Shown piece by piece: positions 1 through 25,808 of a stretch of 64,000 nt of DNA (its first letter is position 1; every line of letters starts with the position of its first letter). The position numbers and the translations under genes were made by a program. The stretch is from Hymenolepis diminuta (Eukaryota; Platyhelminthes; Cestoda; Cyclophyllidea; Hymenolepididae). A model generated the notes under the pieces. It was not told the origin of the DNA, searched no databases, and saw only the letters and a list, made by a program, of their open reading frames with translations. The stretch is taken from assembly GCA_900708905.1 (NCBI GenBank), contig CAADRB010000020.1, forward strand, positions 2,116,550 through 2,180,549. The letters are read 5' to 3'.

Positions 1-569
1 TAACAGAGGGTGATAAATCATCTTAGTAATGAATTATTAAACTTGATGCACCGATAGAGTTAGGTTAAATATTTCAAAATGAAACATTGTATAGTAAGAA
101 ATAGCCTTTGATAAGTGGACCGCTTATAGTGAAATTAATAATTTTTGAGGTATAAACAATTTTTTACGTTAGATATTCACCTGAGATAAAAATCGAGGAC
201 AATCTCTCACTTAATTCACTAAATGATATTCAGGTTCGAATTTTATTGGTAAATATTATTCATTTTCCGAAAGTAAAAAGAACACAACAAATTACAAATT
301 ATATTATATTTATAAAGATTACATTAATGAACTCCTGCAGCCAATGCATGTGATAACCAACTACACTTAAGAAATTTAAGCTAGTAAAATCCGTTTAAAT
401 ACTAATAAATTGCTGCATATAAATTATACAAAATTTATCTTTTTACAAAATCAATTTGATCGACTTTTACTTTATGAATACTGAATATTCACACTATCAC
501 ATCGTATCTTATCTAATATTAATATCAATGTGATCTGCATATTCAAACTTGACCTTGTCGCGAAGTACT
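1..569. other. Upstream flank of the ZNRD2-like gene
   Basis: AT-rich DNA with no convincing exon on either strand. It must contain the promoter and 5' UTR of the gene starting at 570, but I see no clear TATA box or initiator. A B-box-like stretch near 233 (ggttcgaatt) has no matching A box, so it is not called a tRNA. Confidence 0.5.
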
Positions 570-3500
570 ATGAGTGATGTTTCTAGCGAAGTTCTTGCTG
601 AAAGAGATTTAAGACGTCAGCGATCTAATAAAATTTCCGAGTTAATGGGACAATGTCTTCTCAAAGGTTGGCGAATGCTGGAAAGTATCTGTCCCGTTTG
701 CGATGTAGGTTTTGATTGGCATTTAAACAATCAATTCCTAAATTTTAACTAACCTTTTAAATATTTTTAGACCATTTTATTTATGAAGCCAGATGGTAAT
801 ACTTACTGTGTCGCTTGCAGTGAGATTGACAAAACAATCAACTCAAAAGATCAGCCAGCTGCAAGTGTAGAATCATGCCCGAATAATTCTTGTGGTGATA
901 TTCCTTCAAGATCTGCGAACGGTGATCCTGTCGATAGTCCAAAAGATTCATTTGAAATTATTTATACAGAGACGCGTACAAAACTGGATGAGGAGATCGA
1001 GAAATCACTTATTACTAATCGCTCTTTTGATCCTAGTGTTCTCAAGGGTCCGAAGGCCCTACTAAATCGCTGTTTGCACTGTCAAGTAGGTTTTTTTTTC
1101 AAAAATTCGTTTTTTAGACTAATTTAATCCTAACTGAAGAAGGACTTCCATACTGTGTTCTCTGTGGAGATGCTGATAAAATTCATTTGAAAAAATCTAA
1201 AACAATGTGGGACGATCTCCCAATTGAAGTTAAAATCAATTCTATCAAGACACAACACCCCTTGATAGAATCGATAGCATCTGAAACGACTGACTTGCCG
1301 GCTAAAAGGCTAAACCAGAGACCCGATATGATATCTGGATACCTTTTCAAAGGATGGCGAATGGGAGAAAAATGTTGTATTGTTTGTAATGTATGTCCAC
1401 TTTTATCGAATCGTTTGAATAGCCGTTTAGATGCAGCAGTGAACAATGTTTTTAGAATAACTAGATTGTAGCAGAATATGACGCCTAGTATAACTAAAAG
1501 GAAGGCGAAATTGTTGTCCGGAAGGAGTTGAAGGCGAGGTTAAGGTCATCTGAATTGAACTTATTGAATGATTTAAGAGAGTAGTAGAGGGAAAACTGAG
1601 GATTATAGATTATCTAATTGGGTCAAGCTGACTCAGTGTTTGACACTTTCTGGTGTCAACGTAATTTATTCAAGTGAGGTAGTAAGATGTCTTAAGTAAT
1701 GAGTCGCTAACTCACAACGAGATGATGTGATTGGAATTCAGTCTGGATATTTACCCTCCAGATCTATTTCTCGTGAAAGCAGTTTTTATTGTTTCTGCAA
1801 AATTGTAACTTTTAAACGGGGAGCATCTTAAAAGATAAATGAAAAGCAGAAGAGGAATGGATCGAGTCTAAGTTGAAAACACTCTACTGAGCTCATTCAT
1901 ATGGATTCATAAGTTTTTCTTCAGAAGATCTAATCTCCCTAAGTTCTTGAATGATTACTTTTATTCACTGTGTTTGGGACTTATTGATCGGGCATGCCAT
2001 CTTGATGCGTCTGTCTTTTAACTACAAACTACTGTTATGCATTATGATACAATCAAGTTCTTAAATATGTACAAATTGATGCTCTTCTGCCATTCTTTAG
2101 GTGCTTATTGTTTTTACGTCCTTCAGGCTGTAATGTTTTCAAGCCCAGGTGGAGATGTGCGTTGTATTTTCTGCAATGAGGTTGACAAAAAGGAGAAGCA
2201 GGCATCTGCGAAAATGCCGAAGAACATTTCAGCAGAAGCTTTCACAGAAAGGGAAAGACAGTGTCAGCGATCAGACGACATCTCTCAGATAATGGGCCAA
2301 TATCTGCTCAGAGGGTGGCGAATGTTGGATAAGTGCTGTTCTACCTGTGATGTAAGTTAATTTGTATATAAATATACCCTTTGAGTTTCTCTTTTGTGAA
2401 GGTAATTGGTCATTTGAGGTGCCAGTGCTAGTCTGATAAGTCAGAGGTCACGATATCAGTGCATATTGGTGATTTGGATGGCTAGCAGTACTAGTTAACA
2501 GGTAGGATGATAGAATACTTGTTTCTTATAAGGGCAACTCTGGAATACCTTCCCTCTAGACATGTTTATTTTTGCGAACGCTTTCCATAGTGGGCTTGGG
2601 ATATTTAAATAAGTCAAAGATGCAAGCCCTCACTTTAGTATTTACTGTTTTACATCAATGGTTTAAGCAGTGAAAATGAATTTTTTGTAAGTCACAGGCC
2701 ATGAGTTCTATTCTTTTCGGTAGATACCCTGTGAACGGAATGACTAAACGCCCTGGTTACTATGGCCTGGGTAGAGTGGCGGTTTCCATTTAGAAAGACT
2801 CTTCTCAATACACTTTTCGAAAATGGGAAGCCGTGATATAGTTTGCATTCCAAAAGTGTAGAGATTTGTTGCCATTTTATCTTTTTAGATTTAGCCTTAT
2901 TCATCTATTACCGCTAGGTCAATGATGGTTTTAATTCTAGCCACTCACCCAGTCCTGAGATTCTATGAAGGGAGAAGAGATTGAACCGCAGATTGTATAG
3001 ATGATCGGGGACGAGGAATTCAGCTATTTGGGTCTTTATTCATAAAGAACGGGGCTGTCTAAAAGTTGATAGCATTGTCTGAGAAAGTCACCAACCACCG
3101 TAAAGGTATCATCAACCCTATCAACGATAATTACCATTATCTTGAGCACTACCTGCGTATGTCGTGTTCTCATCGACTTCTATGATTAAATGATAGTTTA
3201 GAACTGCAACCCTCGGATTAATAGGGATATATTTCCTTTCGTTCTATCCATACCATGAACCGATTCTTGAATAAATACAGTTACGCTAATATTCTTGAAT
3301 ACATAGCGATATAGTCACTTTAAGTGGTGGATATTTCCTATTTCAGGTTGCAGTGATAACTACTGTAAGTTGCCTGACCAGAATGGGAGTTTGACGGAGA
3401 TAAGTTACACAATGTAATGGGATGCAAGTGCCTGATGAACGTCAATAGTGGGAGAGAGGAGGAAGGGAGCACGAATATAGCAGATGTCCCACACAACTTG

Positions 3501-4760
3501 TGTGCACTTGGTCCCTTATTTAGACTCCGTGATTCTTCTTTCGAGCAGGGAGGAGGCACTCATAAATATTAGAAGCTAATCGGTCCTTCTAATTGACTCT
3601 TGCCTGTCATGACGGCCTCCATACATGTCGCTGGTGCTACTTTATAAGCCTTAAGCGAATTAGATGTAGGTTAGCTACCTTGCTGCTAGCAATCTACTAC
3701 ATGCCTGCACGTAAAGTAGATCAATGGAGAAACCAAACTGGGGGCTATATTAGGCTACATGATTAACAGTCGCTGTCGCTAGTGGTGGAAATTGGCTTGT
3801 TTGGGAGAAAATGGTTGCCTGCTCTCACAATTTGCGATCTTTGGGCTTCTTGGTCCTTATTTCCATCTTTCATACATGTTACAGACTATGCTATTTCATA
3901 TTTACTTGCCTTATCTATATAATATATATATCTTAGTAAAGATCTAAATAAAGGTATACCACGCTACCTACAGTTTGATGGGAATTTAATTATATGATTC
4001 CAACAAACAAAGCTCAAAGCCACGGAGTTTATGTTTTGTGTCGGGATGAGGAATTCCCGCAGGTTTTCGCTAAGCCGTCTATCGTCGTTTTCATTATGCG
4101 GGTGCACGTCACTCCTGACAGCTTGACAATTAAAACGGAAAAAGGACCGTCATGTGTTCGGTGGTATCTCCATGTTTGAACGTCATTAATATGAAAACGA
4201 CATATTTTCACATATATTAATCTTTAGTAAATTAACGGTGTCTTGGACTGACTTCTATCTTATCTCTCTATAGGTTGAGTCAATTGACTAACTTAGCAAT
4301 ATCTGGTGGAATTCTAGGTCACAACGGCAAAAAAACCGGCCTTGCAAAATGAAGCCTACTGGATCCATTTTTTTGTGATCTAATTGCGTCATTTTTTTGT
4401 GTCTTTCAGACAATTTTGATGTTAAATCGAGAAGGCAAACAGTATTGCATCGGCTGTAGTGAAGTTGACAATAAGGATAAGCAAGAACTTGAACCAAAAT
4501 CTATGCAGAATCAACCCAACAACGGCGAAACTACTAAGCAAACACAACATCAACCAATTGTTGATTACTCTAAATTCCTAAGAACCATGAAATATGATGC
4601 CAGTTTGAGTGAAACTCAATCCACTATAATGAATGCCATCCATACATGTTCCCAACGCGTCATCTGTTCCTCCTTGCCTATGGATGCCGAACGATATGCC
4701 AACGCTGCCAAATTCCTTTCTGAAGCCCTCCTTAATGTTCAAAAGTTTTCGTCTACGTAA
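570..4760 (+). CDS. ZNRD2: ZNRD2/SSSCA1-like protein with four zinc ribbons (5 exons)
   Basis: Exons 570-704, 771-1085, 1118-1390, 2127-2351 and 4410-4760 join in phase 0 throughout and encode 432 residues. Each junction falls between the two CxxC knuckles of a zinc ribbon: CPVC/CVAC, CLHC/CVLC, CIVC/CIFC and CSTC/CIGC, all spaced CxxC-x13-CxxC. Modules 1, 3 and 4 carry the ZNRD2 (Auto_anti-p27 family) lead-in helix, seen as SELMGQCLLKGWRML, DMISGYLFKGWRMG and QIMGQYLLRGWRML; in module 2 it is degenerate. The last exon ends with a ZNRD2-like C-terminal helix (SEALLNVQKF). Vertebrate ZNRD2 is about 200 residues with one ribbon, so this protein is roughly double in length with the core domain multiplied. 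The ATG at 570 is chosen because the N-terminus then matches family length; the upstream in-frame TTG is not used. The family's role is poorly known (autoantigen p27, linked to mitosis). Identity is firm, function unknown. Confidence 0.85.
1086..1117 (+). other. 32-bp intron in the ZNRD2-like gene
   Basis: GTAGGT donor, T-rich middle and TTTTTAG acceptor. Removing it restores the second zinc ribbon with the same 13-residue spacing as the other three, which is the main support for so short an intron. Confidence 0.8.
2352..4409 (+). other. Last intron of the ZNRD2-like gene, repeat-bearing
   Basis: Donor GTAAGT and acceptor TCTTTCAG. The interior looks less AT-rich than its surroundings and has pieces resembling dispersed repeats elsewhere, for example 2425-2560 and 3780-3900. 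Short ORFs (2692-2904 and 3338-3559 minus, 3994-4179 plus) have no recognisable domain or good splice context, so none is called a gene. Confidence 0.55.
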
Positions 4761-4796
4761 ATTGTAACATTATTGGTATTATTTTTGTGAATACCC

Positions 4797-4802
4797 ATTA
4801 AA
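4797..4802 (+). promoter_or_regulatory. Candidate poly(A) signal ATTAAA
   Basis: ATTAAA lies 37 bases after the stop codon of the ZNRD2-like gene, a normal distance for the common variant of AATAAA. Confidence 0.45.
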
Positions 4803-4863
4803 TATAAAATATGGTCTACCTAAGTTGTTTTTTATAGTGGAAAGCAGTACACGGTATGTATAA

Positions 4864-5118
4864 TGTAGAGAAATCATTGTTTCAAAAGGAGATGTGTACA
4901 GTAGGGAGAGAAAGAGGATTGAAAGTTTTACTGATAACGGGGATAGTTTGGATGTTGTTGATTCCGGGTTTGTTGCTGGTAACTTCCCCTTATATTTGGA
5001 TGCTGAAATGGAAAGAAAAGAGGAAAAGGACGCAGTGGATTATTATCTGAGTAAACTAACTATTGTATGCACTCCCTCAAAAAGTAACCAAAACACAAAC
5101 GACAAAACCAAGCCTTAG
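4864..5118 (+). other. Unassigned exon-like ORF, plus strand
   Basis: Open for 84 codons to a stop at 5118, about 100 bases beyond the ZNRD2-like stop. The translation has protein-like composition, including DSLDVVDSGFVAGNFPLYLD and then an acidic, lysine-rich stretch. No Kozak-like start or strong acceptor decides a beginning. It could be an alternative 3' exon of the upstream gene, the last exon of another gene, a decayed insertion, or chance. I do not recognise it. Confidence 0.25.
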
Positions 5119-6695
5119 ATCAGCGCATTGAAAGAAAGTAACTTCGTCTGGCATAGTACTCACTCAATTCAGGTCTCCGGTTTGTAAAATTTGTAACAAT
5201 ACACGGCAAATAAAACTTTATAGTTCGTCCGTATTGTAGTAAACAAACTACCGGGACTCGATTTGTACAAACTTTAAATCTTTGTCTCAAAAAGAGGAAA
5301 GAAATGAGTACCAAGTTAAATGTATTGAAGGTAAGACAGAGAATTACGCTTATACATGTATAGCAGCTAAGACTCTACCATAGAGAAAGACCCAACTACA
5401 CAAACTCCGCCATCACACAATAGGAAAGGAAGAAGAAGCAATGACTAAGTAGCATAGCAAAGTTCAAAATAAAGGTATAAGGAAGCGGGGAAATGGAGTT
5501 GTGTGCAGGACGAAGTTAAGGAGATAGGAAACAGGCAAAAAACAATAAGTAAATCAAGTCACTACAAATGCATGAATTGGAGCCACACATCACTGTTTGT
5601 ATATCACTTATTTGTAGCGAAACAGTTAAGAAATCGAGAGGATAAGATTGACGCAAAAGTCCGCTTGCATACAGTAAGAAAATCGATACGAAAACACAGA
5701 CGGATCTGTATTTATTGAGAACACATTCAGAAACGAGATTGAATATAAATAAAGTCTACCCAAATGGGGATGCTAATGTATATTGCAAAATTACATCAAG
5801 AATTTACATTGCTGTACCAAATTATCATTCTGTGCAACTAAGAAAAAGGAAGTGGTGCCACTAATCAATTTCCTAATCTAGTGTGATTCCAGATATACGG
5901 TTTTTTTCTACCAGATAAATTAAAACTGGTTTTTGAATACATAGAAACAAGCATATAACATTGTATATCTACATTCGCGAAAAGCCGGCATTCAATGCGC
6001 TTTTCAACTCAAGAACGCTAAATCAAACTTGAAGATTTTACATATTTTAAGCCAAGGTCCTCAATATCATTAATTTGCAGGACTAAAACTGTCAAACTTC
6101 ACTCTTTTCTTCAAATGTGTCTAATGTTGACAGCTATATATAATCTTCATCCAACTTACATTTTGTATACGGACTTTAAATCTGATATTTTAAGAATAAA
6201 CGGTCAAACGAGGGTAAATAACATTGAGTAACACAGTGAACAAATGGGAAGAAATTACCAACCGCTTCCGCCATGAGTGTTATATAGACACGTGTATGCC
6301 CATGCTATCTTCAAACCTAAATAGATTCACTAATACTGCTCGAGTTAAATGCTGGATATCTAGATGAGCTAGTTTTATATTATGGTCTCCAGGTGGATTT
6401 CGTCTGTCATATCAAGGAGAAATGTCTTATCAAAAGTTTTAGACCACTTAGAAAAAGCTATAGTCGTCAATCCTCAACTGGAGACATCAGGATCGATGAA
6501 TAAACGTGTGGTCCTTTGAACTATTTCACTTATGCAAATGACTTGACTTGTTCCTTTAGTATATTAGGCTGGTCCATATGACTTCTAGCCTAATCAATTT
6601 GAAAACAAAAAGTAAAACAGTTGAGCGCCAAATGAAAATAACCAGATGATAACAAAACACTTTTGAAACTCGGAACAGGTTAATTTGATTCTCAC

Positions 6696-10400: not shown

Positions 10401-11484
10401 TAAATTTTGACGAATATATGAATTTACCTAGTTAAATCTCCGTTGTTTGATAATTACACTGGAAATCAGAACGATGAAGCATTAAACGTAATAAACAATA
10501 CTTCCGGAATCATATAGTAATAATGGAACAGATTCTATACGACATGTATTATATATCACATGGTAAAATAAATATAATTTGTATAGGTCAGTAAGAAGTG
10601 CTAGACTTACCCGAAGGATAGCCCATAACTCGAAAGATCCTCTCCAACTGTTCCTTATGATACGGTGTGCTGGTCTTGATATCCTCTTGTCGACAATGGA
10701 AAATTGGTTCATAGGTTAAGAGTTCAGCAAATATGCATCCAATAGCCCATACATCAATCGCTTTGTTATAATGTCGAGCACCTAATAACAACTCCGGTGC
10801 ACGATACCAGAAAGTAACAACAACGGGATCTAAATCCGCGAGAGGTTTGAGAGGAGAATAGAAGATCCTAGAAAACCCCAAATCGCCAATCTTGACACAA
10901 CCGCGTTCAGGCCCCTCACCCATGACGACAATATTTGCCGGTTTCTAGATGAAAACGATCATTATCGAAAATCAGTCAATAACTTACCAAGTCACGATGG
11001 AGAACCCAGCATGAGTGAATGTAGTGGATTCCATTTAAAATCTGATACATAAGACTCTTCACCATATTCTGAGAAACAGCAAAAAAGGATTTGTTGGCTT
11101 TTGCCGTTCGATGGAATTTGATAATATGCCAGAGATCGTACTCAGCATAATCGAAGAGGAGCCATATCTTTCGAGTGGTGTGGTTGAGAAATATTCGATG
11201 CAGTGTCATGACATTTCGATGTTTTAACTCTCTCAAGAGCTGGAAAAAGTTGAAATAGGTAAAAAGGAGAAACCTACTCCAATTTCACGACAGGAAGACA
11301 TTGAGAGACCAGTGCCTTCAATCTGTTTGAGAGCGTACTCTCTTTCATCTGAACCGTCTTTCCGCTTTGCTTTGAATACACTGCCGTAGGTACCACGACC
11401 GACTTTGCAGCCTTCAAAGTTAAATATATCCTCAACGCGTTCACGTTTTGCATCTAATTCGCGTTTGAAGTTGATATCTACCAT
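7455..11484 (-). CDS. CDK8: Cyclin-dependent kinase 8/19, Mediator kinase module (8-9 exons)
   Basis: Exons in coding order: 11484-11278, 11239-10988, 10944-10611, 9412-9267, 9183-9086, 8484-8247, 8131-8096, 7834-7796 and, tentatively, 7535-7455. Phases agree at all junctions, giving about 476 residues (human CDK8 is 464). Visible are the glycine loop GRGTYG (29-34), catalytic Lys53, the CDK8-type cyclin C helix SMSSCRE (61-67), HRDLKPAN (150-157), DLG (174-176, where vertebrate CDK8 has DMG), and [13 protein letters not shown]. After the kinase fold comes the CDK8 hallmark IPYPKREF, then a Q/P-rich tail. CDK8 with cyclin C, MED12 and MED13 phosphorylates transcription factors and RNA polymerase II in the nucleus. 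The ATG at 11484 aligns with the family N-terminus and lies six bases after a TTTACAG acceptor. The kinase is secure; the last exon is a guess. Confidence 0.93.
7796..8131 (-). other. Two tiny in-frame tail exons of CDK8 (36 and 39 nt)
   Basis: Exon 8131-8096 encodes [12 protein letters not shown] and exon 7834-7796 encodes [13 protein letters not shown]. Both are flanked by AG and GTAAGA, both are phase 0 and multiples of three, and they begin alike. They extend the low-complexity tail that follows the Q/P-rich exon 8484-8247. Confidence 0.65.
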
Positions 11485-13139
11485 TTTATCCTGTAAATGA
11501 TTAAATAAGTAAGAATAAATGAAGTACGCTATTAATGAATTTACGACGCATAACATAACTATAGCATTAAAACCGCAAACTAAATAATGAATCTGAGGGC
11601 TAAAATCAAATTTAGACTTATAATTTTTCACATTTAGGCGCGATATTAACCAATGTAACTTATATTTAATACCTGGAATTATAAATTAGAACAGTCGTCT
11701 CTCACCAAAATTTATTTAGTGCGACAAAAGTAGACAAACGATTCTCAAGGTTGTTAAAGGTCGAGTTATAATAGGCTTAATACGAAGTTTTTAATTGACC
11801 ATCTACGAAGCAGAATATTATAGCATTTGTTATAATGGCATATATTAATAATTTTGTCTTGATTAAAATTCTCTCCTAAGAATATGATCATGACAAAGAC
11901 CTTTATTTTTATGTACTTTGCCATCGAATAGGCTAAACCCCTGGTTACCTTTCAGGACGTCAAAAGTACCAGTGTCGTTTATTATCCATTTGGTTTAAAG
12001 GTTTAAACATTAAAGGTTTGGTTTAAATGTTCAATAGCACACTATCTTCTCAACTTAATTATCTGTGATGTTTAATATACCTTTCATCACACTTGTGGGC
12101 TTTTTCTGTTATTTCTCCTTCTTTGGATATTTAAAGAAACACTACCTTATTCATTATTTCTACAAATTAAGTTACGCCCTAAATTGTATTCTTGAAGCAT
12201 CATACGCCAATTCACAAACATTCTCCAATAACGCAAATATTTTTGGAAGATAAATCCACAGAACTATTTGTGTATCTATCAAAAGATGTCAAAGCCAATT
12301 TAGGAACACGAATAAGTGGTTTTACTAATGATGATAGATATTTTTCAATCATTAATAATTCACTTCGATCTTTTTTATTATAGATAGTGATGTAAATTCT
12401 AAAAATTCGTTAGATAAGCATATCACTTTTCTTGTGACATAGCTGTCTGCCAGTCGTTATTCGGTTTAAATGTATTTTTGAATAACAGGAACTTATCTAA
12501 ACGAATCCAATAATGCTCCCCGTTTTATTGTAATTTGGATTGGTAATTTCAGTGATATCAAGGTCAGATTTATAGATGTTGACACGAGACCATGATCTAT
12601 AAGAAAAATAATATAGTGAAAAGTCGGAACATTGTAATAATGGCATGGCAAATGATATCTAGATTTATTCTTAATTATTTTCGTCCTGGTAAAAATAATT
12701 ATAGATGATATAAATTGAATTTTAAATTTCAATTTCATTTACGTCAAAACATACATTTCATTAAATTATTTGTTAGAAATAATATCTTATTGGCAATTTT
12801 TCATCTTTGTTTGGAATTGGAGAACAAAGAATGTGTTCCGGTTCCAGTATAAACAACCAAGAATTAGCGTATTCAGTTAGAAGACGTTGTTGTCGTCACT
12901 TTGTTGAAATATTATAATAATATGTATTTTTGCCTTAAGATTCAGAAAATTATTTATTCAGACTTGAATTTGACAAGTAATTTATATTCATCACCGTTAT
13001 AATCTTTTCTTCTCTGTGGGATACCGTAACTGACTCAGATTATCCATAAAATGGTACCAGCTACAGATACAGTCCTGCTACCCCAAAATACGAAATGACT
13101 CAAACCACCACGTCAAAGTAAGACTTTCGTATCGACAGG

Positions 13140-20400: not shown

Positions 20401-23400
20401 GAATTAAATGAAAATAACGCAACATTTTGACTTCAAAGTAAATATTAAAAACAGTATTTCTTCAGCCTAAATAATACAAATGGGTAATAAACAGGAACTC
20501 TTATGCTTACTTCCCATTTCGTGAGCCCAAATAAACATATCCATCTTGGGCACCAATCAGGAAGCTATCATCAAAATCACGGACAAACGCCACAGACGAG
20601 GGAATCACAGTCTTTGCTTGTTTGTAAACAAGTTCCATAGTTTGAGTCGGTTGAGCAAGCATGTCCAAGCTCCAGGCGCACATTCGACCATCAGTGCCGA
20701 CACTTACAAGATTATTGGCATTGTGGTCACCTGTCACCGCCAGAGCCCTGATTGGCTCCCAGTGGCCTGTGTTTCCAGCCGGACCAGTCCTCTGGATAGG
20801 AGTCTGACGATTAACTCTATACAGAAGTGGAAAATAACACTTGAACACAAAATGGGTCAATACTACCAATTAATAATTTTGGTAGCCTAACTTACCGCGT
20901 ATCCCATATGACTATCTGACCAACATAAGTTCCGCCGATAATGAGATTCGGATGAAAGTCAGAGAATATCGCTGTGGTAATAGGAGCTTGGCAGGTAAAT
21001 ATCGAATCCGGACCAGATTCAGACTTCTTTGATTTGAGGTTCCAGAGAAGACAGACTCCATCAGCGGTCGCAGCCGCCGCATAGAGGTCGACAGGAGTCA
21101 AGGCCATTTCATCTTTCTGAACTGCAGAATAGGCTGCTAAGATGATTTCTGGATGATTGAGTGACCAGTCAAGAGCTGTTACCGCTCTTTTGGCGGTCCA
21201 GACTTCATCGAAAAAGGCACGATCTTCAATCAGCAATTGTTGGGCTTTCGCTAACCTGTTAACCAATTAAATCTCACCGGTAATCGACGCCAACCAATGA
21301 TAGCTTAATTCAATTGTCTGAATCAGGTATGCTTTAACCGATAAAGGAAGTAAAACTGAAGCTGTAAGATATACGCATGAGTAATCACCGATGAACACCA
21401 GGGATATGCAAATGGAATACGCATGTATTAAGCTACATTGTGCATGCAGTTTAAACGTGTTTGAGCAAGAGGCCACCTTGAAACAGCCAATCAATGTAGA
21501 ACGACAGAGCGTGTGAACGGCACTTGCTGTATAGTTAATAAAATCTACTTGGAGAAACAAAACCTAACAAAAGTTATGTTTTTAAAGATCTAAGAATGCA
21601 TATTCTGTTGCAATTACAGAAAGCTTACTGATTTGTGAATCTTCGGAATTTTTAGATTATGAGGGACAGATGTGTCAGTGGTGTAGTAATATCGACCTTT
21701 TAAAATTTGGTCCAAATACTTTGATTCGATTTTAATGAGTGTGTGAAAGAGCTAACGGAAGACAGTAGCCTTTACACAAATAAGTTCAAGATTTGAGTGA
21801 GACCACAAGTACATTGAATATCCACAAGGAAGAAGAAAGAAGCACGATAGGAACTGAAATTTGAAGAACAAGGAATAAGCGTCATTGTGGTGTGTGCAAA
21901 CTGGGTTGTGGCACATATCATCCACTGAGTTGGGTTCGCTATTTACATTCTTTGCTATTTATACAAGTAACCAGTGAAGAGCCGTTACGAGAAAACTTGA
22001 ACCTAGCAGTGATATGGGTCAGCTTTTGCTTATTTGTCTTTGCAGAGACATAACAGATACGTTGATAATACTCGTTGGCTAATTTGCACCAGTAAAAAGG
22101 GGGATAGCCACATGAAAGTTTCTCATCTAGAAACTCATGAAAACGGCACTAATCAACCCAAATTAAGTATGGACGAGAAATTGGGTTCTCTTTATTTACT
22201 TCAGGTGTGTACAAGTGGCATAGTGGTCAAAGTGCCAAGCCAGAGATCACAAGTTCGATACTCACTAGGAAACGTTCAGTTAATAAAATAACTGCACTAG
22301 TTTAAGGAGGCATTTCAGAAAGCGAGGTTACCATAGGAGAGACCCTAAGATGATACTTCTCTACCTCAAAAAGAATATTAGAAGACAATCTCCTCAATGA
22401 AATTGAAAAGTATAATTATTCCTTAAACTGTTGGCTAATCTGCTGGACTTCGGTAATTAAGTTGCAGTAAAGAATGTAATTGGCCTAAGCAAATACCTAA
22501 AATAAAAATGGTGGATTACATTATTTTAAGCAGGACCAACTCAATGACATTCTCACTTGCTAATATGAAGACTAGAGAAACGCTAAGACTGACAATTTAC
22601 AATAAAACATCGAGTTTGCTTAGTTTGCCAATGCAGACATATGGATGATTTAATGGTGTATTGAAACACAAATAAAGGGAGACTTACTCATCTTCCTTGT
22701 CCGCTCCACTATAATCGAAAAATATGTCTCTTTCATCTTCTTCTAGAGCACTTTCGACAAGTGTTGAAGTTCGGAATAAAAATTCCTGGAAGTTTTCAGA
22801 TGCTTGAATATTCTCTTTATCTTCTTCAGTTAATTCTTTGACTTAATAGAGAATAAAGTCAGCACTATGATTACGAAATACGTACAAAATTAAAAATATT
22901 TCGAAATTAATATTTAACCTGATGGTCTAATGGTGGCGGCCATATCATCAATTCTAACACGTTTTTCGATATCAAAATTATTTATAATTGGTGGAACGTC
23001 CTGTTCTGTTAAAGGTTCATCTTCATCTACTAAAATAAATATATTTCAATATTTAGAAAACAGATGTTCCAAATTACCTGGAAGTAAGTCATCCCACTCC
23101 AAACTTATGAGAGCTCTGGGAATTGTTCCATTTGCACCAGAAGGCGTTTCAGGCCAAGTATCGGTAGCGATTGCTAGAAGAATTAAAAGTTAAAAAAAAC
23201 TTTACATGGGGTTTCACATTTCATTTCGGCTATAGTCTGAGTCTCTTTGGAATATTGTTCCCCAATTACTGGATCGAATGAATATTCGTTAAATTCAGAT
23301 ATTGTGAGGGCGGGATTTTTTGGTTGGGAAAGTCTTAACAAAATATTGAAATAGGCAAATTGAACATACCTCAGGTCTAAGGCAGCTGAGCTATTTGACC

Positions 23401-23629
23401 TAGCCAAATCGGGAGTTAATCTATTTGGTGTAATTTTTCCATCGATTCCGATACCTAGATCACCTAAGATTTGTTCAGTGTCAACAGCTTTAACAACTGG
23501 AACGTGATGAATTTCTGTTGTCAGTTCTCCACGTTTTTTTTTAGCCTCCCTTTGTATTCTTTCTTCACGTAATGCCGCGAGTTTAGCCTTCTTTATTTCA
23601 AGTTCTTCTTTCCTGCTCAAACTAGACAT
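14431..23629 (-). CDS. DYNC1I: Cytoplasmic dynein 1 intermediate chain (10 exons)
   Basis: Exons in order: 23629-23370, 23333-23206, 23173-23078, 23029-22919, 22841-22688, 21255-20896, 20816-20511, 19097-18809, 16735-16610, 14559-14431. Phases match at all nine junctions, giving 652 residues, the usual family length (about 610-650). The N-terminus is a charged coiled coil (EELEIKKAKLAALREER), the dynactin p150Glued-binding region. A perfect LC8 motif KETQT lies at 116-120. The segment ELTEEDKENI to IFFDYSG matches the conserved block before the propeller. WD repeats follow: VTALDWSLNHPE, FHPNLIIGGTYVGQIVIWDTR, VSVGTDGRMCAWSLDML, TSMDCTAKLWSR, WSPSHPALFATVDLSGQLDIW and IAVGDDSGRTRIF. The chain scaffolds dynein light chains and binds the heavy-chain tail for retrograde transport. 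The first four introns are 32-77 bp and most later ones are 1.4-2.1 kb. The weakest site is the GTTAAA donor after 22919. Confidence 0.95.
16041..16200. repeat. Diverged dispersed repeat in a dynein intron
   Basis: By eye the stretch GGAGACGGAGGTAGCC..TTGTGACAAGATGG..TTTCTCACACTCTTGTACTC matches 34610-34770 with scattered substitutions, and more weakly 3780-3900. No ORF; probably an old SINE-like or fragmentary element. Confidence 0.5.
19735..19870. repeat. Diverged dispersed repeat (ATTCTGC family), copy 2
   Basis: Shares CTTATGGGGAACTCAAATTC and flanking positions with copies at 38370 and 7218. It lies in the dynein intron 19098-20510 and contains the hairpin at 19822-19852. Confidence 0.5.
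19822..19852. other. Perfect 13-bp inverted repeat, 5-base loop
   Basis: TGAACTCATGGTC, loop GGAGG, then GACCATGAGTTCA. The arms are fully complementary. It is intronic and inside a repeat copy, so it may be an element's terminal or structural feature rather than a regulatory site. Confidence 0.8.
22214..22262 (+). repeat. tRNA-derived SINE-like fragment
   Basis: TAGTGGTCAAAG resembles a polymerase III A box and AAGTTCGATACT, about 20 bases later, a B box. It cannot fold as an intact tRNA by inspection, so I call it a tRNA-related repeat head rather than a tRNA gene. It lies in the dynein intron 21256-22687. Confidence 0.4.
23334..23369 (-). other. 36-bp in-frame intron of DYNC1I
   Basis: GTATGT donor and TTGTTAAG acceptor. 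It is 36 bases long with no in-frame stop, so an unspliced transcript stays open and adds twelve residues (YVQFAYFNILLR). Removing it joins DLR to LSQPKNP. I treat it as an intron because its hydrophobic translation does not suit this charged linker. Confidence 0.7.
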
Positions 23630-25808
23630 AATGTAAAGTCAAGAACAAAATTTATCCAAATAGGAAGACCGTTATTATTTCAGCCAGAAATTTCCGAAAA
23701 CCGACATAACGCAATTGACCTTATATTAGGTAACTTAAATAATCTTGTGAAATCAGATGTTTAATGAATAAAATTATTCTTCAATATCTACTGATAAATT
23801 TAATACTTTATTTAACTTATTTTATTTTAAATTGCTATTATCATAGGTACACTGATTATGTGACGAAAATTCCGCGGTGAATTATAAAGCATTTCCAAGA
23901 AATTTAATAAGCCGCATTTTTCTATTAAAATTACTAACTATGCTTTTGTAACTTTTCATCAAGTACTGCAGTGACGGTGATATTTGTCCATGCTTTGAAT
24001 GTCCATGCTTTCGTTTACATTGCTAATACTTTATATTAAAATCGTTCTGTGTTCTTTTAGCAATATGATTTTTTCACAAATTTCTGATCATTGAAGTTGA
24101 ATCATTGGGAATACGCATACTGTGGCTTGACTCCAGATTTACGTGGAAAATTTTCGGTCAGTTTTTGGATACATCGAATAGCCTCATACGAATCTTCCAT
24201 TATGATGCATTTTTTGCAAATTAAAATCTCATTTCATTGTTAGCAATGCTGAAATATTCCAAAGACTTGTTCATGTGTTTATCTTTAAAGCAAATGGTTA
24301 TACAGCTTATGAATGGCTGTGAATGGTGATTGAAAACGTAAAATGAAAATCACCACTTATATTTTTAGTAAAATTTGCTAAGCCTCTTCCGCTTAATCTC
24401 AACTATGTGTCATCATTTGACTGTAAATGATGAAATTACTGCTATAGCCAGTAGATGTCTATCAACACATAGCGATTAAAAATAATAAACTGGCGATAAG
24501 GTCTTCACTATAGTGTCCGCAGGCGGTACCACTGTGTGCTTGCGTGTCTGCACATAGATACCTAAACGGGCGTCTATCATCACACCGAGACTTCGAAAAG
24601 ACATAACTGACGTCCATCGAAGAAACTTTTTGCCTATATAATTTACTAATTAGTAAATTAGGGTGGCTCGTTTGCCACCTCCGAATTGATCTGACGCCAT
24701 GAGTGACTTGACTTATTCCATCTATTCGGTCAATGTAGTCCCGATAGATCTTTCAATGTTATTACAGACTGAAAACTAGCATATAAATTTTTTGCAGTAT
24801 TGTTGCATTGACGTTTAGATTTGATGGACTATTGTTTTCTGACTTCTTATAATTTCATGAAAAATGCGAGTGGGAGAATAAATAGGGAATTAAGCAATTA
24901 AGATGAGTCTGTAATTAATGAGAGTGAATGGTTTAATATGACCATGTTTCATGACCATTGGACAACTTTCTGCATGGAATACATGATATACTGGTCTGCT
25001 ATCAGTTGATTCACGATTACTGCTACTTTTTCGTTTTGATTTATTTGATATCTGAGATGACCGTCTAAAAGAACACAAATTTAGGTCTCTCCTATTTTGA
25101 TCCTAATAATAATAGCTATAGATTTAAGTTCTTTAAGTCGGGTTTAGAAAAAAATTATTGAACTCCTATTTAAGCGCTGCTACAACGTGTCTCAATAAAT
25201 AAATATTCAAAAATGGATAGGCCATATGAAGTATGATTTAAAACTTAGTAATCTTATATATTTCAACTTACACATGACAAACCTTTACAAAATTTCGTTA
25301 TTTAATAATGTCAAGCATCATTACTAGTTATTTTGCTAAAAATGATAACAAAACGAACTTTCATAATTCACGTGTATTCCCTTCCGAGTTTTCCTACTAT
25401 TGTGATAGTTAATATCTGCTATATACAGAATGAATTGGAGTGGAAGTGAAATTAAATACAACTAATATATTACTCGAATTAAATTGAATACTTGAACAGC
25501 TGAATAAAATGTAATCTTCATTGAAGTATTTTAAATATTGATCAATTCAAGGCATGATTATCACGTAGAGAGTACTTTGAATTCGCACTGTTGGTAATTC
25601 GTTCTCAAAAAGTGTTTTTTATAATATTATGCTGCATCAGTATATATAACTTACCGTCTAAAATATAATATTTATGTGTATGAATTAATATCTTTTATTT
25701 TGATATATTATGTGGGATATTTTCTCATTCAACATCTAATAATGTGGATCTAGACAGACTGCACTCTATCTGTGCATTCGAGGGCGGCTATTTCGTAATT
25801 GCGTGAAT
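23630..25808. other. Divergent intergenic region between DYNC1I and SNRPD1
   Basis: About 2.2 kb separating two genes transcribed away from each other, so both promoters probably lie here. I see no clear core promoter motif. One exon-like ORF on the minus strand (24890-25064) is listed separately. Confidence 0.5.
24890..25064 (-). other. Unassigned exon-like ORF, minus strand
   Basis: A TTGTGTTCTTTTAG acceptor is followed by an open frame to a stop at 24890. It begins with a serine/lysine-rich stretch (SSQISNKSKRKSSSNRES) and continues through VYHVFHAESCPMVMKHGH. It could be the last exon of an unseen minus-strand gene, but no upstream partner was found before SNRPD1. Confidence 0.25.

Follow-up and report, generated by a model that had tools for sequence, protein, structure and literature searches.

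How could a protein family whose members usually carry a single zinc ribbon come to hold four of them in one chain, and what might the additional copies do? These questions are raised by a gene at positions 570-4760 of a 64,000-nt stretch of DNA from the tapeworm Hymenolepis diminuta (assembly GCA_900708905.1, contig CAADRB010000020.1, positions 2,116,550 to 2,180,549, forward strand; hereafter the window). An original prediction, made from the sequence alone, described the gene as a ZNRD2-like one with four tandem ribbons, each split by an intron at the same point. We find that it is an ordinary two-exon ZNRD2 gene (exons 1 and 5) built around three symmetric phase-0 exons, and that the resulting array is conserved in hymenolepidids. 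We then consider how the array may have grown and what its modules may bind, given that ZNRD2 has recently been shown in human cells to act as an adaptor handing unassembled chaperonin subunits to HERC2 (PMC10501995).

A single ZNRD2 gene with four zinc ribbons

Splicing the five exons, each of a length divisible by three and the last including the stop codon, yields a 432-residue product with four C-x2-C-x13-C-x2-C ribbons, at residues 41-61, 146-166, 237-257 and 312-332. All four introns are GT...AG and phase 0 (lengths in Table 1), and each begins one codon past the second cysteine of a first CxxC. The spliced product equals P0001, the annotated H. diminuta protein, over 432/432 residues. 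An in-frame stop lies just upstream of 534, and the start codon aligns with those of five relatives (P0002-P0006, below). When the 432-residue protein was shuffled 20,000 times, one ribbon motif appeared in 59 shuffles and more than one in none.

The Pfam family PF06677 (Auto_anti-p27) matches the whole protein in three stretches, at 106.1 bits against a cut-off of 24.1, and modules 1, 3 and 4 each pass this cut-off separately. Module 2 gives no PF06677 match up to an E-value of 10, showing instead a weak match to A2L_zn_ribbon (0.15). For the last module, the best sequence match in the Protein Data Bank (PDB) is human SSSCA1/ZNRD2 (6hcz, 3e-14). The same entry is the best Foldseek match of an AlphaFold2 model built from an alignment of 28 retrieved sequences (E 5.1e-4 and 1.4e-3; template modelling (TM) score to target 0.85 and 0.94). 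The protein thus has the traits of ZNRD2 membership: the PF06677 match, the Cys4 spacing (in four copies), the lead-in helix and the C-terminal two-helix domain. It departs from the family in a trait that is typical rather than defining, a single zinc domain in a protein of 15-25 kDa; PMC7070046 describes ZNRD2 homologues of this size, in which the domain is predominantly a single motif.

Helix-plus-ribbon modules 1 and 4 and two long C-terminal helices (residues 382-402 and 406-431, occurring once only) are modelled with good confidence, module 3 with somewhat lower confidence. Helices precede the ribbons in modules 1, 3 and 4 of the model; module 2 lacks the usual helix sequence. Overall, the mean predicted local distance difference test score (pLDDT) is 68.8 and the predicted TM score (pTM) 0.27, with the domains in no fixed mutual arrangement. 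So low a pTM alongside confident modules 1 and 4, a confident tail and a fairly confident module 3 suggests that the protein would be a flexible string of independent domains with the single two-helix tail at its end.

The gene appears to be the only one of its kind in the genome. A search of all 170.6 Mb with the last module and tail returned five pieces, every one an exon of this gene, and the PF06677 profile matched two places, both inside it; neither search found a second ZNRD2 gene or a fifth module. When the introns were scanned for half-module words, just two stray CxxC matches turned up, both in intron 4. From these sequence comparisons we regard it as near certain that 570-4760 is a single ZNRD2/SSSCA1 gene of H. 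diminuta, and its four-ribbon architecture is near certain as well. To this extent the original prediction holds: the four equally spaced ribbons and the four phase-0 introns one residue past the first CxxC are recovered on splicing, the ZNRD2-like identity agrees with the profile, the 6hcz sequence and fold matches and the identity with P0001, and the profile and protein searches it had pointed to gave a PF06677 match above cut-off and relatives in other tapeworms.

Ribbon number among relatives

A protein search with the 432-residue query, limited to proteins 0.55-1.75 times its length, gave six proteins. Five have four ribbons: H. diminuta (P0001), H. weldensis, Rodentolepis nana, H. microstoma and P0005 (together P0001-P0005). 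The sixth, Anoplocephala perfoliata P0006 (358 residues), has three. Four ribbons, with all Cys4 sets and spacings kept, are thus present in 5/5 full-length hymenolepidid-type proteins, the other four of which are 68-86% identical to that of H. diminuta. Searching with the last module and tail yielded one fragment; P0007 is a hymenolepidid-type exon-5 fragment without a whole ribbon.

Shorter relatives were retrieved with an eight-row alignment, the best 120 of 392 proteins being used. Among the 126 retrieved proteins, one ribbon is found in 115 (under both motif definitions), four in five, two in three, three in one and none in one (P0007), and one further protein has one ribbon by the strict motif and two by the loose one. 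That a single ribbon is the norm for ZNRD2, as had been assumed at the outset, is borne out by these counts. Single ribbons are carried by the proteins of the taeniids Hydatigera, Taenia and Echinococcus (168-177 residues), of the diphyllobothriids Sparganum and Dibothriocephalus (192-196 residues) and of flukes; P0012-P0017 and P0019-P0021 have one each. Our protein searches need shared five-residue words and may miss other multi-ribbon proteins: the two-ribbon P0009-P0011, described below, fitted the length range of the 432-residue query yet did not appear, which indicates that multi-ribbon relatives can escape the search.

Of the flatworm proteins retrieved, only those of hymenolepidids (four ribbons) and Anoplocephala (three) have the array. 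With taeniids taken to have branched off before Anoplocephala and hymenolepidids parted, the array arose, on present sampling, after taeniids split from the line leading to the other two. The Anoplocephala protein resembles that of H. diminuta in its tandem array and its three PF06677 stretches and, by eye, in linker 1 and the last-module lead-in, which are common to hymenolepidids and Anoplocephala. It differs in having one module fewer and no specialised module 2, although its gene model may miss an exon.

One relative bears on whether the modules are expressed together. P0005, with its four ribbons, is a 1,299-base open reading frame on a 1,389-base contig, leaving 90 bases. Even at the smallest intron length found in this gene (32 nt), four introns would take up 128 bases, so the contig most likely derives from a spliced transcript and the P0005 modules share one mRNA. 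This argues, from a relative rather than from H. diminuta itself, against a separate transcript for each module. It also bears on whether the array is an artefact of assembly or gene modelling, in which separate neighbouring genes or duplicated exons were joined wrongly. Gene models are often automatic, and two sturgeon models with repeated half-ribbons (P0008 and P0018, below) look artefactual. However, the array recurs in five proteins, the other four 68-86% identical to that of H. diminuta and one on a transcript-length contig; the exons differ from one another, the introns share no similarity, and the genome holds one locus. An artefact is therefore extremely improbable.

Proposed growth of the array within the ribbon-splitting intron

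Each of exons 2-4 starts with the back half of a ribbon and runs through a linker into the front half of the following one. All eight exon combinations, in which zero to three of these exons are omitted, leave the reading frame open and the ribbons intact. Exons 1 and 5 alone encode 161 residues with one ribbon, compared with 168-177 residues in three taeniids (P0012-P0014). The taeniid proteins share the layout of exons 1 and 5 and a similar tail, and also have no WxPP motif (see below); they differ in lacking both equivalents of exons 2-4 and the KDxP motif. Because exons 1 and 5 match taeniid ZNRD2 in size and layout, we take them to be the old gene. The content of exons 2-4 and the frame-keeping omissions agree with the repeat unit first proposed, which runs from intron to intron.

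The same exon structure would allow exons 2-4 to be alternatively spliced cassettes, giving proteins of one to four ribbons, hybrid ribbons among them, with binding tuned by stage or tissue. All seven omissions among exons 2-4 keep frame and ribbons, down to a 161-residue ZNRD2, and front and back are split at an identical point in every ribbon. Frame-keeping is automatic with symmetric exons, however, and hence no evidence that skipping occurs, and P0005, the one four-ribbon relative on a transcript-length contig, has all four ribbons. We consider regulated skipping quite improbable.

Two gene models of Acipenser sinensis bear on the age of the intron site. P0008 carries the front half of the ribbon module three times, every copy ending exactly at CEECS, and P0018 carries the back half twice, both copies beginning at TILM, which is the tapeworm intron point. 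These repeats are probably annotation or assembly artefacts. Even if the models are faulty, the coincidence of their block borders with the tapeworm intron site suggests exon borders there, and the ribbon-splitting intron is probably older than the array.

Comparing positions 1-6500 of the window with themselves revealed 74% identity between exons 1 and 4 over 97 nt (2263-2358 versus 616-711), with shorter similarities between exons 1 and 3 (21 nt) and exons 4 and 5 (30 nt). One 25-nt pair connects intron 4 with the downstream flank of the gene, and no intron-intron similarity was found in this comparison. Similarity between exon halves but not introns indicates that the duplication is old and its breakpoints no longer readable. 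In a tree of modules (54 columns, with 15 of the 37 inner branches open), the copies of module 2 in the five four-ribbon proteins make up a single clade (support 100/100), as do those of module 3 (100/100) and of module 4 (98/99). Because these clades span all five proteins, those duplications predate these species.

From these comparisons we infer the following pathway. The ancestral gene would have had one phase-0 intron within its ribbon. A fused back-plus-front exon would have arisen in this ribbon-splitting intron and would then have been duplicated there after the taeniid split.

Modules 1 and 4 keep the CCT-contact residues, and module 2 is the most conserved

We next compared the modules with human ZNRD2, the link between orphan CCT subunits and the ubiquitin ligase HERC2. 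In the human study, residues L42, L43, M48 and I59 face CCT4 in a predicted structure and D79, K82 and D83 face HERC2; mutants at L42, L43, M48 or I59 abolish CCT4 binding, and mutants of the D79, K82, D83 set sharply impair HERC2 binding (PMC10501995).

In a gapless alignment, the equivalents of L42, L43, M48 and I59 read LLMI in modules 1 and 4 of 5/5 four-ribbon proteins, as they do in 15/15 tabulated single-ribbon flatworm proteins. Across the five four-ribbon proteins, these positions read VLAN (as in H. diminuta) or ILAN in module 2, and LFMV, LFMI or IFIL in module 3. The Anoplocephala protein has LLMI in modules 1 and 3 and LLKV in module 2.

The core of module 2 (residues 134-166) is nonetheless the most conserved part of the protein. 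In the five proteins, 28/33 of its columns are invariant versus 225/399 elsewhere (Fisher p 0.0014, a flattering value in that the stretch was picked after viewing the alignment). The remnant of its lead-in (residues 134-145) is invariant in 11/12 columns across the same proteins. Having lost most CCT contacts and yet being most conserved, module 2 is better called specialised than decayed. The original prediction had spoken of a lead-in that decayed, suggesting specialisation; the conservation of module 2 favours the specialisation and goes against simple decay.

This constraint on module 2 would also fit a protein whose extra modules work away from CCT, the array serving instead as a scaffold or for self-pairing, with modules 1 and 4 paired within the chain and module 2 holding a lineage-specific partner. 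The human ZNRD2 domain ran as a dimer, and its crystals contained an antiparallel dimer formed mainly via the lead-in helices (PMC7070046); the model of the tapeworm protein places such helices in modules 1, 3 and 4. Module 2, moreover, is strongly constrained despite losing most of its CCT surface. On the other hand, the model contains no confident packing of modules (pTM 0.27), and retained CCT binding accounts better for the full LLMI set in modules 1 and 4. A scaffold of this kind seems rather unlikely.

HERC2-contact and W13 motifs in flatworm ZNRD2

To compare the ligase side, we counted two motifs in the 125 retrieved ribbon-bearing proteins (P0007 left out): KDxP, which covers K82 and D83, and WxPP, which includes W13. 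The flatworm group (21 proteins) was formed by name, with P0005 added by similarity, and no free-living flatworm is named in it; the 104 non-flatworm-named proteins come mostly from vertebrates. KDxP lies no more than 24 residues past a ribbon in 103/104 of the latter versus 2/21 of the former, the two being H. diminuta and H. weldensis, where it occurs past ribbon 1 only. The lone exception among the 104, P0095, itself reads like a flatworm sequence. WxPP is present in 96/104 non-flatworm-named proteins and in 0/21 flatworm proteins. By these motif counts, parasitic flatworms appear to have changed how ZNRD2 hands on its cargo.

The two-ribbon proteins P0009-P0011 (245-251 residues, on contigs of 1,261-1,315 bases) are instructive here. 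Like the H. diminuta protein, they have a second helix-plus-ribbon module past a short linker and one tail; they differ in keeping both an N-terminal WxPP and KDxP after the first ribbon. The two of them included in the module tree, P0009 and P0010, group with non-flatworm animals, and all three probably come from a non-flatworm animal. The retained motifs and the position in the tree point to a separate origin, and ribbon duplication in ZNRD2 has thus probably happened at least twice.

We also searched the H. diminuta genome for domains of HERC2. The MIB_HERC2 profile matched one place, where an open frame holds two matched stretches of this domain; the frame looks like mind bomb. The Cul7/CPH profile had zero matches in the genome, its control also matching nowhere, and is hence uninformative. 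HECT and RCC1 profiles matched several loci, one of which (on C6) has both on the same strand and is presumably HERC4-like. In comparisons of two RCC1 frames with the PDB, HERC2 was not separable from other propellers.

Layout of the locus and its neighbourhood

The features of the gene are collected in Table 1. The motif ATTAAA downstream of the stop codon is a possible poly(A) signal.

Table 1. Features of the four-ribbon ZNRD2 gene, in window coordinates
Feature	Position	Strand	Basis
Exon 1 (residues 1-45): start codon and lead-in helix, then front half of ribbon 1	570..704	+	Splicing, upstream stop, aligned start
Module 1 lead-in helix (residues 6-31), holding part of the CCT-contact set	585..662	+	AlphaFold2 pLDDT about 84-93; residue comparison
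Intron 1, phase 0, 66 nt, inside ribbon 1	705..770	+	GT...AG
Exon 2, symmetric (residues 46-150): from back half of ribbon 1 through linker 1 to front half of ribbon 2	771..1085	+	Splicing; skip test
Remnant of the module 2 lead-in (residues 134-145), matching the place of LLRGYRMLGET with no gap but lacking the usual helix sequence	1035..1070	+	Alignment
Intron 2, phase 0, 32 nt, inside ribbon 2	1086..1117	+	GT...AG
Exon 3, symmetric (residues 151-241): from back half of ribbon 2 through linker 2 and lead-in helix to front half of ribbon 3	1118..1390	+	Helix at residues 212-227 in AlphaFold2 model
Intron 3, phase 0, 736 nt, inside ribbon 3	1391..2126	+	GT...AG
Exon 4, symmetric (residues 242-316): from back half of ribbon 3 through linker 3 and lead-in helix to front half of ribbon 4	2127..2351	+	Splicing; DNA similarity to exon 1
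Intron 4, phase 0, 2,058 nt, inside ribbon 4, contains dispersed repeat	2352..4409	+	GT...AG; genome comparison
Exon 5 (residues 317-432): back half of ribbon 4 and linker, then C-terminal two-helix domain and stop	4410..4760	+	Splicing, alignment, AlphaFold2
C-terminal two-helix domain (residues 382-431), one copy	4605..4754	+	pLDDT about 88-96; aligned with P0002-P0006
ATTAAA, possible poly(A) signal, begins 37 nt past the stop codon	4797..4802	+	Sequence

The dispersed repeat in intron 4 spans about 3642-4166. With 40 of 408 candidates scored, parts of it recur at 69-91% identity in at least 39 further places in the genome. Further along the window, two minus-strand open frames at 11233-11685 and 23183-23638 read like the starts of what we presume to be CDK8/19 and a cytoplasmic dynein intermediate chain, respectively. 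No Pfam match at 0.01 was obtained for open frames of the neighbourhood (5 of 7 frames tried), these two included.

Discussion

The reading that we favour, with a probability of roughly 0.7 overall, is that of a multivalent, rewired ZNRD2, in which an array grown by exons serves a function in CCT binding and ligase handover; its functional half is much less certain than the identity and architecture of the gene. Modules 1 and 4, and more weakly module 3, would, like human ZNRD2, bind unassembled CCT subunits at their exposed hydrophobic patch, and one molecule could then hold several CCT subunits, or one more tightly. Module 2 would have given up its CCT surface to serve another conserved partner. 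Handover to a ubiquitin ligase would probably depart from the human HERC2 route, given that most retrieved parasitic-flatworm ZNRD2 proteins lack the HERC2-contact motif.

Zinc binding and CCT binding by the flatworm ribbons are both predicted from sequence, and several observations weigh against this reading. Human W13, another predicted CCT contact, lacks a counterpart in 21/21 flatworm proteins. The CCT-contact residues of module 3 have drifted, most in R. nana, H. microstoma and P0005, and ribbon 3 is the least conserved of the four (10/21 columns invariant), so multivalence may reduce to two modules. The model of module 2 has low confidence, about 55-62 in the ribbon and below 50 before it. 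On the ligase side, the KDxP past ribbon 1 in two hymenolepidids, H. diminuta included, could be a kept or regained HERC2 site, and the H. diminuta genome may yet have HERC2. As for the history of the array, module 1 does not form one clade in the module tree, and the Anoplocephala modules are unplaced there; the Anoplocephala middle module is identical to hymenolepidid modules 2 and 3 at 16-17/54 positions versus 27-32/54 for modules 1 and 4.

Some of these points would suit drift, with modules 2 and 3 being tolerated passengers of neutral exon duplication and modules 1 and 4 alone mattering. The variability of ribbon 3 and of the module 3 contacts in the five proteins and the presence of three modules in Anoplocephala are what such a history might leave. 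All four Cys4 sets and their spacings are kept in every full-length four-ribbon protein, however, and module 2 is the most conserved stretch of all, making neutral retention unlikely.

Set against animal ZNRD2/SSSCA1 proteins (PF06677, 6hcz), the H. diminuta protein is alike in its lead-in helix and Cys4 spacing, disordered linker, C-terminal two-helix domain and the LLMI set in modules 1 and 4. It differs in having four ribbons in 432 residues rather than one in usually about 170-250, in combining three helix-bearing modules with one that lacks the usual helix sequence, in being without a W13-type motif and in carrying the HERC2-contact motif past ribbon 1 only. The gene is already annotated in public databases under a ZNRD2-type name; what is new is the four-ribbon arrangement of this known protein. 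No tandem or multi-ribbon ZNRD2 is described in the titles and abstracts examined from the open-licence literature on ZNRD2, Auto_anti-p27 or Hymenolepis.

A bolder idea joins the splicing and ligase themes: choice among cassettes might act as a valency dial, yielding ZNRD2 with one to four (partly hybrid) ribbons in cyclophyllideans that lost the HERC2 handle and gained extra CCT-gripping modules through symmetric exons; module 2 would then bring in a new ligase or client to replace HERC2. We regard this as a long shot.

Under the multivalent, rewired reading, the hymenolepidid protein would be a natural experiment on which parts of an adaptor can be rewired, with the client-gripping module multiplied, one copy rebuilt under strong constraint and the ligase-contact motif mostly gone. 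It would also show, in a clean and datable instance, how an array of domains can grow through an intron lying inside the domain.

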